DNA of 64,000 bases from Streptomyces sp. TLI_235 (GTDB lineage: Bacteria > Actinomycetota > Actinomycetes > Streptomycetales > Streptomycetaceae), in NCBI GenBank assembly GCA_002300355.1, contig NSGV01000001.1, positions 3,410,001 to 3,474,000 on the forward strand, written 5' to 3'. Under the pieces are notes generated by a model. It was not told where the DNA came from. It worked only from the letters and a program-made list of their open reading frames with translations, and searched no databases. A program made the translations under genes and the position numbers. This document shows positions 21,827 to 26,185 of this stretch, piece after piece. Each line of letters opens with the position of its first letter. The first letter of the stretch is position 1.

Positions 21827-23533
<1,707 letters not shown>

Positions 23534-23568: not shown

Positions 23569-23595
23569 TTGTCACTCTCAAGCTGTGAGTGCTAA
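23569..23595. promoter_or_regulatory. CIRCE operator (start-proximal copy)
   Basis: On the minus strand it reads TTAGCACTC-N9-GAGTGACAA, the HrcA-binding CIRCE element with two deviations in the second arm. It lies about 120 bases ahead of the groEL start, in the 319-base gap 23450-23768. Confidence 0.9.
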
Positions 23596-23604
23596 CGCCA
23601 ATGA

Positions 23605-23631
23605 TTAGCACTCACAGGTGGCGAGTGCAAG
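23605..23631. promoter_or_regulatory. CIRCE operator (start-distal copy)
   Basis: On the minus strand it reads CTTGCACTC-N9-GAGTGCTAA. It is separated by nine bases from the first copy, so the adjoining arms (GAGTGCTAA and TTAGCACTC) form a third, outward-facing palindrome with its own 9-base spacer. Confidence 0.88.
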
Positions 23632-24177: not shown

Positions 24178-24528
24178 CAGGGTCAACTTCGGGGAAATCC
24201 CGGGCTGCGCCAAGGGATATGACGGGATGAAAGTGCCCGATCTCGGCATTTCACGCCGGACATAACGGGCAGAAAACGACATATTGCCGCAGGAATTCTG
24301 ACACTTGCCTGACAGGTTCGCTCCCGTGCCGTCCGCTTCCCGTCTCAGCGGGCGGACGTGGCCGACGATCGGCGCCAGAGCCTTGCGCACACGATCCAGC
24401 CGCCCGGGCCGGGGTGCGCCGTTCCTGGTATTACCGCTGATCAGAATGGGCGGCGCGGAGGGGAGCGCTGCCACCGCCCCGAACTCTACTCCCCGTCAGG
24501 CGGTGCTTTTTCCACCCGACACGGCGAG

Positions 24529-24574
24529 AGCCGCCGCCGGACCGGAAAATAGGATTCCGGTCCCGGCGGCGGCT
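24529..24574 (-). terminator. Terminator of the sulfur-carrier/thrC operon
   Basis: Arms of 19 and 20 bases pair with a single bulged base around a seven-base loop, 23 bases past the stop codon at 24597. Confidence 0.75.
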
Positions 24575-24596
24575 CGCCGCGGGCAGGGGGCGGGGC

Positions 24597-24875
24597 TCAG
24601 CAGCCGCCGGCCACCGCGGGGATGATCGACACCGTGGCGCCGTCCTTGATCGCCGTCTCCAGGCCCTCGGCGAAGCGCACGTCGTCGTCGTTCACGTAGA
24701 CGTTGACGAAGCGGCGGAGCTTGCCGGCGTCGTCCAGGATGCGGGCGGAGATGCCGGTGTGGTTCTGCTCCAGGTCGGCCACGACGGCGGCCAGGGTGTC
24801 GCCCTCGGCGGTCACCTCGGCCGCACCGCCGGTGTAGGTGCGCAGGATGGTCGGGATGCGGACGGTGGCGCTCAT
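24597..24875 (-). CDS. MoaD/ThiS-type sulfur-carrier protein ending in Gly-Gly-Cys
   Basis: A 92-residue beta-grasp protein (MSATVRIPTILRTYTGGAAEV start), related to CysO/MoaD. Such proteins carry sulfur as a C-terminal thiocarboxylate on Gly-Gly. Here the tail is AVAGGC, with a cysteine after Gly-Gly. If the carrier works in the usual way, the cysteine must be removed first, as Mec+/JAMM proteases do for other carriers with extra C-terminal residues. The gene follows thrC by 32 bases in the same direction, so it is probably under the same SAM riboswitch. No adenylating enzyme or protease gene is in view. Cysteine, methionine or molybdopterin synthesis are all possible. Confidence 0.88.
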   Translation of the reverse strand: MSATVRIPTILRTYTGGAAEVTAEGDTLAAVVADLEQNHTGISARILDDAGKLRRFVNVYVNDDDVRFAEGLETAIKDGATVSIIPAVAGGC

Positions 24876-24907: not shown

Positions 24908-26185
24908 TCAGGCGAGGCCGGCGGCGCGGAAGGACTCCAGCGTCGGGCGGATGGTGGCGGTCAGGCCGGAGTCGGCGACCGCGTCGAGGGTCTTCAGGCC
25001 GTCGCCGGTGTTGATGGCCACGGTCTCCTTCGACGGGTCCAGCTGCCCGGTCTCGACCAGCTTCTTGAGGACGCCGACGGTCACGCCGCCGGCGGTCTCG
25101 GCGAAGATGCCCTCGGTGCGCGCCAGCAGCTTGATGGCGGCCACCACCTCGGCGTCGGTGACGTCCTCGACCGCACCGCCGGTGCGGCGGGCGATGTCGA
25201 GCACGTACGGGCCGTCGGCCGGGTTGCCGATCGCCAGGGACTTGGCGATGGTCTGCGGCTTGACCGGGCGGATCACGTCGTGGCCGGCCTTGAAGGCGGC
25301 GGAGACCGGGGAGCAGCCCTCGGCCTGGGCGCCGAAGATCTTGTACGGGCGGTCCTCGACCAGGCCGAGCTTGATCAGTTCCTGCAGGCCCTTGTCGATC
25401 TTGGTGAGCTGCGAGCCGGAGGCGATCGGGATCACGATCTGCTCGGGCAGCCGCCAGCCGAGCTGCTCGCAGATCTCGAAGGCCAGCGTCTTGGAACCCT
25501 CGCCGTAGTACGGGCGGAGGTTGACGTTGACGAAGCCCCAGCCCTCGCCGGCCGGGTCGCCGATCAGCTCGGAGCAGAAGCGGTTCACGTCGTCGTAGTT
25601 GCCGTCGATGCCGATCAGGGCGCCGCCGTACACGCCGGCCATGACGATCTTGCCCTGCTCCAGGTCGTGCGGGATGAACACGCAGGACTTGAAGCCGGCC
25701 CGGGCGGCGGCCGCGCCGACCGCGCCGGCCAGGTTGCCGGTGGAGGAGCAGGACAGGGTGGTGAAGTCGAAGGCGCGGGCGGCCTCGATGGCGCAGGCGA
25801 CCACGCGGTCCTTGAAGGAGTGCGTCGGGTTGCCGGAGTCGTCCTTGACGTGCAGCTGGGCGGTGAAGCCGAGCTCACGGCCCAGGTTGTCGGCCTTGAC
25901 CAGCGGGGTCCAGCCCGGGTTGAGGTTGGGCTTGCCGGCCACGTCGGCGGGCACCGGCAGCAGCGGGGCGTAGCGCCAGATGCTGGCCGGGCCGGCCTCG
26001 ATGCGCTTGCGGAGTTCGGCGGCGTCGTAGCCGGAGTAGTCGTACGCGATCTCCAGCGGGCCGAAGCACTCGAGGCACGCGAAGCTCGGGCCGAGCGGGA
26101 AGCGGGTGCCGCACTCGCGACAGGAAAGGGCTGCGGCCGGACCGAGGTCGACGGTGGCAGCGGGTGCAGGGGTAGCGGTAGCCAT
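24908..26185 (-). CDS. thrC: Threonine synthase
   Basis: A 425-residue PLP enzyme of the tryptophan-synthase-beta fold that converts O-phosphohomoserine to threonine. The N-terminus has a zinc-ribbon-like pair (CRECGTRF and CLECFG), followed by NPTHSFKDR with the PLP lysine near residue 113, SCSSTGNLAGA as the phosphate loop and TAGGVTVGVL near the C-terminus. The ATG at 26185 is preceded by GAGAGAGG; upstream in-frame starts fall inside the riboswitch. A SAM-I riboswitch occupies the leader, which is notable because threonine competes with methionine/SAM for the same precursor. The sulfur-carrier gene follows. Confidence 0.95.
   Translation of the reverse strand: MATATPAPAATVDLGPAAALSCRECGTRFPLGPSFACLECFGPLEIAYDYSGYDAAELRKRIEAGPASIWRYAPLLPVPADVAGKPNLNPGWTPLVKADNLGRELGFTAQLHVKDDSGNPTHSFKDRVVACAIEAARAFDFTTLSCSSTGNLAGAVGAAAARAGFKSCVFIPHDLEQGKIVMAGVYGGALIGIDGNYDDVNRFCSELIGDPAGEGWGFVNVNLRPYYGEGSKTLAFEICEQLGWRLPEQIVIPIASGSQLTKIDKGLQELIKLGLVEDRPYKIFGAQAEGCSPVSAAFKAGHDVIRPVKPQTIAKSLAIGNPADGPYVLDIARRTGGAVEDVTDAEVVAAIKLLARTEGIFAETAGGVTVGVLKKLVETGQLDPSKETVAINTGDGLKTLDAVADSGLTATIRPTLESFRAAGLA

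Follow-up and report, generated by a model that had tools for sequence, protein, structure and literature searches.

A metO-type sulfur-carrier gene of the Kitasatospora-type actinomycete Streptomyces sp. TLI_235, which follows a metM-type gene and a SAM riboswitch in the 64,000-nucleotide stretch of DNA analysed here (the window), encodes a protein ending in Gly-Gly-Cys, and the pair probably serves homocysteine synthesis (we put the probability of the whole model at about 0.8). In this model, MetO would be made with a one-residue Cys cap, which the single Mec-type JAMM protease of the genome would remove, exposing the Gly-Gly. MoeZ would adenylate and then thiocarboxylate the glycine end of the trimmed carrier, and MetM would convert the MetO thiocarboxylate and O-phosphohomoserine into homocysteine; MetM reportedly acts together with thiocarboxylated MetO. 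The cap may be gained and lost by one 3-bp unit at the GGC/TGA junction. We propose that the cap is retained since Mec, which is there for CysO anyway, would tolerate it and cut the same Gly-Cys bond as in the CysO-cysteine adduct. Gene content, synteny, the riboswitch, the cap distribution and the codon pattern come from this study, and the function of MetM/MetO and the need of capped carriers for JAMM and MoeZ come from published work.

The carrier reading frame (24597..24875, minus strand) starts with ATG and encodes 92 residues with the C-terminus SIIPAVAGGC. Judged from its sequence, it is a real gene, since the product, a ThiS/MoaD-type beta-grasp protein, matches Pfam ThiS with 67.1 bits (cut-off 22.5), M. 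tuberculosis CysO of known structure (3dwg_C) aligns with it full length to the Gly-Gly (E 5.8e-33), and AAGGAG lies directly 5' of the ATG. The preliminary description had reported a cysteine behind the Gly-Gly, and the terminal codons at 24597..24608 (minus strand) confirm it: GGC (24606-24608), GGC (24603-24605), TGC (24600-24602) and the stop TGA (24597-24599). The nearest public relative, Kitasatospora sp. DSM 101779, is identical at 268 of 276 bases and has the same Gly-Gly-Cys-TGA end with a TGC codon, as does every other Kitasatospora-labelled locus fetched by name. Chance or an assembly or sequencing error is therefore ruled out as the source of the extra cysteine.

On the minus strand of the window, a SAM riboswitch (RF00162, 26203..26334, 73.2 bits) is followed by the metM-type gene (24908..26185, 425 residues) and, after a gap of 32 nt, by the metO-type gene. 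A very stable hairpin without a U-run lies just 3' of metO (about 24522..24581, minus strand, z -6.7) and is a possible transcript end; a scan for promoters and U-run terminators found none. Co-transcription of the carrier with thrC under a SAM riboswitch had been put forward, and the arrangement stands insofar as the carrier follows the upstream gene and the riboswitch on one strand, but the partner is MetM-type and the true thrC is located elsewhere. Nor is the riboswitch over the operon unusual, as had been thought: all 20 metM loci sampled, from many families, have one upstream. In 135 genomes, the carrier gene has a metM-like gene of the same strand directly upstream. In family f14, a c-di-AMP riboswitch (RF00379) is found near metM-metO on the strand opposite the operon (L057:802-988, L109:2133-2309). 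Elsewhere in the window, a CIRCE-like inverted repeat, GAGTGCTAA-N9-TTAGCACTC (23584-23617), lies upstream of groEL (21827-23449, minus strand), as expected for HrcA control.

The upstream gene, which had been taken for thrC, is almost certainly not a threonine synthase gene. Its product is ThrC-like (PLP fold type II) and scores 268.9 bits against the threonine synthase model TIGR00260, above the cut-off, and a cyanobacterial homologue produces threonine in vitro (PMC12172450). Both observations would fit a second threonine synthase with a carrier of some other role. We consider this highly improbable, as the genome has a separate, canonical thrC between the homoserine dehydrogenase and homoserine kinase genes (hom-thrC-thrB), the only SAM riboswitch found in its 9.25 Mb precedes the metM-type gene, MetM complements MetX across genomes and the function of MetM has been published for S. 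albulus. The metM-type product and the canonical ThrC of the same genome are 38% identical over their shared region. By analogy with S. albulus MetM, the gene probably encodes an O-phosphohomoserine-dependent homocysteine synthase. This revises an annotation, the second "threonine synthase" being very probably a homocysteine synthase.

Across 394 genomes of the class, MetM and MetX are complementary: MetX is missing in 141 of 249 genomes with MetM versus 11 of 145 genomes without it, where a genome counts as having the ThrC-like gene at E<=1e-100 and MetX at E<1e-70. Several of the 11 genomes with neither gene at these thresholds (G007, G010, G014, G076, G081, G084, G140, G150, G201, G244 and G273) are incomplete, and others may use another homocysteine route. 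In the window genome, MetX was not found by E-value (the 500-bit cut-off of its model was reached by no genome, controls included), and neither was MetA. Because neither was found, metM-metO is probably the main homocysteine route of this genome. Such a lack of the acylhomoserine route (MetX/MetA) speaks for a MetM assignment without strictly defining it. Two PLP enzymes of Cys/Met metabolism are encoded in addition, one of the cystathionine gamma-synthase family and one nearest to methionine gamma-lyase.

The preliminary description had pointed out that carriers with extra C-terminal residues need a JAMM protease and had proposed a genome search for Mec+ and MoeB/MoeZ homologues. The expected trimmer is indeed present: the genome encodes one Mec-type JAMM protein with an intact motif, HSHTATEAYPSRTD (HxH-x7-S-x2-D), and one MoeZ (752 bits against a cut-off of 647). 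Every one of the 50 genomes whose cap begins with Cys also has a Mec match, which is a weak test, as nearly all sampled MetM genomes have Mec. The suggestion that the terminal cysteine could mimic the carrier-cysteine adduct is chemically correct, since the peptide Gly-Cys bond of the tail is the bond that Mec+ cuts in CysO-cysteine. By analogy, we infer that Mec would trim the MetO of the window. The mec gene adjoins cysM and a cysO whose product ends in GG-MK (L002:705-1767; G000:C1, near 4924030-4925092). By linkage to metM and not to mec or cysM, the window carrier is not the CysO of cysteine synthesis, the carrier of the mec-cysO-cysM locus being its paralogue. Together with a ThiS and a MoaD, both ending in bare GG, these make four carriers in the genome, of which the window carrier and the GG-MK CysO belong to one subfamily. 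With two such carriers at hand, the Cys-capped MetO might never be activated while CysO serves MetM, and redundancy between PtmS2 and PtmS3 has been proposed in S. platensis (PMC6006322). This is very unlikely, however: the core of capped MetO proteins is conserved, their linkage to metM is kept, no decay is seen among them, and CysO is itself capped.

The metM-metO system and the GG-C cap are both already known, and the window holds another instance of metM-metO. A novel pathway from O-phosphohomoserine and a carrier thiocarboxylate was considered and dropped, as it has been published as MetM/MetO. In S. albulus, according to Hasebe et al. 2024 as cited in PMC12172450, MetM converts O-phosphohomoserine to homocysteine and MetO is the sulfur carrier. 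As described there, the S. albulus system shares with the window a ThrC-like gene with a sulfur-carrier gene behind it, a SAM riboswitch upstream and a homocysteine route through a ThrC-like enzyme, which for the window is predicted. Homocysteine activity is reported for the S. albulus enzymes; the window pair is likened to them by gene arrangement.

The literature likewise already has a Gly-Gly-Cys carrier with its likely processing, in S. platensis. There, PtmS3 ends in GG-C, PtmS2 in GG-MV and two further carriers in bare GG, and thioacid formation is lost when the gene for the JAMM protein or for the MoeZ-like protein is deleted (PMC6006322). Strain CB00739 resembles the window genome in having a second carrier with a two-residue cap, one JAMM protein and one MoeZ-type activator, and its PtmS3, like the window MetO, has a single Cys after a Gly-Gly at residue 91 (PMC6006322). 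In vitro, PtmS3 whose cap had been removed in cloning was active together with the MoeZ-like protein, and its role in vivo was deduced from redundancy (PMC6006322). It was studied for thioplatensimycin, not for methionine (PMC6006322). PtmS3 would be the MetO orthologue judging by its cap and by its length, which puts the GG at residue 91.

The closest solved structure to the window carrier comes from the CysO-CysM-Mec+ system of M. tuberculosis (PDB 3dwg). As in MetM-MetO, a PLP enzyme uses a carrier thiocarboxylate on an O-phospho substrate, and Mec+ cleaves a Gly-Cys bond, hydrolysing CysO-cysteine (PMC3227635). Unlike the window carrier, M. tuberculosis CysO has no cap after its Gly-Gly and serves cysteine synthesis; its true counterpart in the window genome is the mec-linked carrier ending in GG-MK. 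The HcyS/HcyD pathway of Wolinella succinogenes, like MetM-MetO, makes homocysteine from a thiocarboxylate, but its PLP enzyme is of the acylhomoserine type and not ThrC-like. Its one-residue (Ala) cap is cleaved by a JAMM protein. PMC5764234 cites this pathway.

The Cys cap is nearly specific to MetO, which follows from a comparison of carrier ends. The metM-linked carriers of 135 actinomycete genomes have the ends GG (83), GGC (49), GGCA (1), GGA (1) or GGSS (1). The mec-linked CysO proteins (n=83) have a bare GG in 30 cases, and the remaining 53 carry 33 different caps, one of them C. Exactly one Cys thus forms the cap in 49 of 52 capped metM-linked carriers versus 1 of 53 capped CysO proteins (Fisher p 4e-25, kinship ignored). 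The three rare MetO ends (GGCA, GGA and GGSS at L094, L100 and L103) all belong to family f26. Among the mec-linked CysO ends read in family f1, caps range from two residues (MV, MR, AR) up to 25, and none is a bare GG. The preliminary description had asked whether most streptomycete homologues share the GGC end and whether it is already explained. It is common, and already described in PtmS3, but it is not the majority end in an even sample of the family (15 of 40), the count among the nearest relatives being 46 of 80. No clear association was seen between the cap state and MetX, which is present in 25 of 83 genomes with a GG end and in 22 of 50 with a Cys after the Gly-Gly.

On a FastTree tree of MetM and MetO, which has many open forks, at least 21 changes of the Cys cap are needed, 11 of them forced by well-supported branches. 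The window genome, which alone represents its genus in the sample, branches first in the tree of family f1 and has the Cys. To the extent of the open-access literature searched, where we did not find it, this turnover is a modest new observation. Of the 49 Cys-capped metM-linked carriers, 48 use TGC for the Cys and one uses TGT, and GGC precedes this codon in 40. Duplication or loss of 3 bp at the GGC/TGA junction would, on this codon pattern, account for the reversibility of the cap as well as for its residue and length. Stop-codon read-through is an unlikely origin because caps longer than one residue are very rare and none of the 49 Cys-capped genes has a tandem second stop behind it.

It is about an even chance that the cysteine is a purely mutational leftover, added and removed as TGC by recurrent slippage and neutral since Mec removes it. 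The frequent GGC TGC pair, the missing tandem stops and the many cap changes are what such slippage would leave behind. A neutral residue, however, should drift as it does in CysO, yet the only caps beyond Cys are A, CA and SS, confined to one family, and slippage in a GGCGGC run should also yield Gly-Gly-Gly, which is never seen. The 3-bp step alone leaves unexplained why Cys hardly ever drifts and why CysO differs, and so leaves room for selection. That single-residue caps are almost never anything but Cys is a hint of selection and not of tolerance alone. The terminal Cys might then be specifically selected, newly made MetO being a carrier-cysteine adduct that is activated only where Mec is active, which would couple methionine to the cysteine pathway. 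MetO caps are nearly always Cys while CysO caps vary freely, all 46 further capped relatives also have Cys, and the codon is kept at metO loci where the 3' flank is scrambled. We nevertheless regard specific selection as unlikely, given that the cap is often lost or gained, that 83 of the 135 sampled MetO proteins do without it and that slippage can give Cys without selection. In its fullest form, which is more doubtful still, the Cys cap would be a selected, switchable licence: an encoded carrier-cysteine adduct that only Mec matures, tying homocysteine to the cysteine-releasing protease and toggled by one 3-bp step.

Carrier capping thus appears as a trait that switches repeatedly, with the residue nearly fixed in MetO and freely varying in CysO. 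The natural GG and GGC forms of MetO in sister species make the question of why some carriers need a protease testable.
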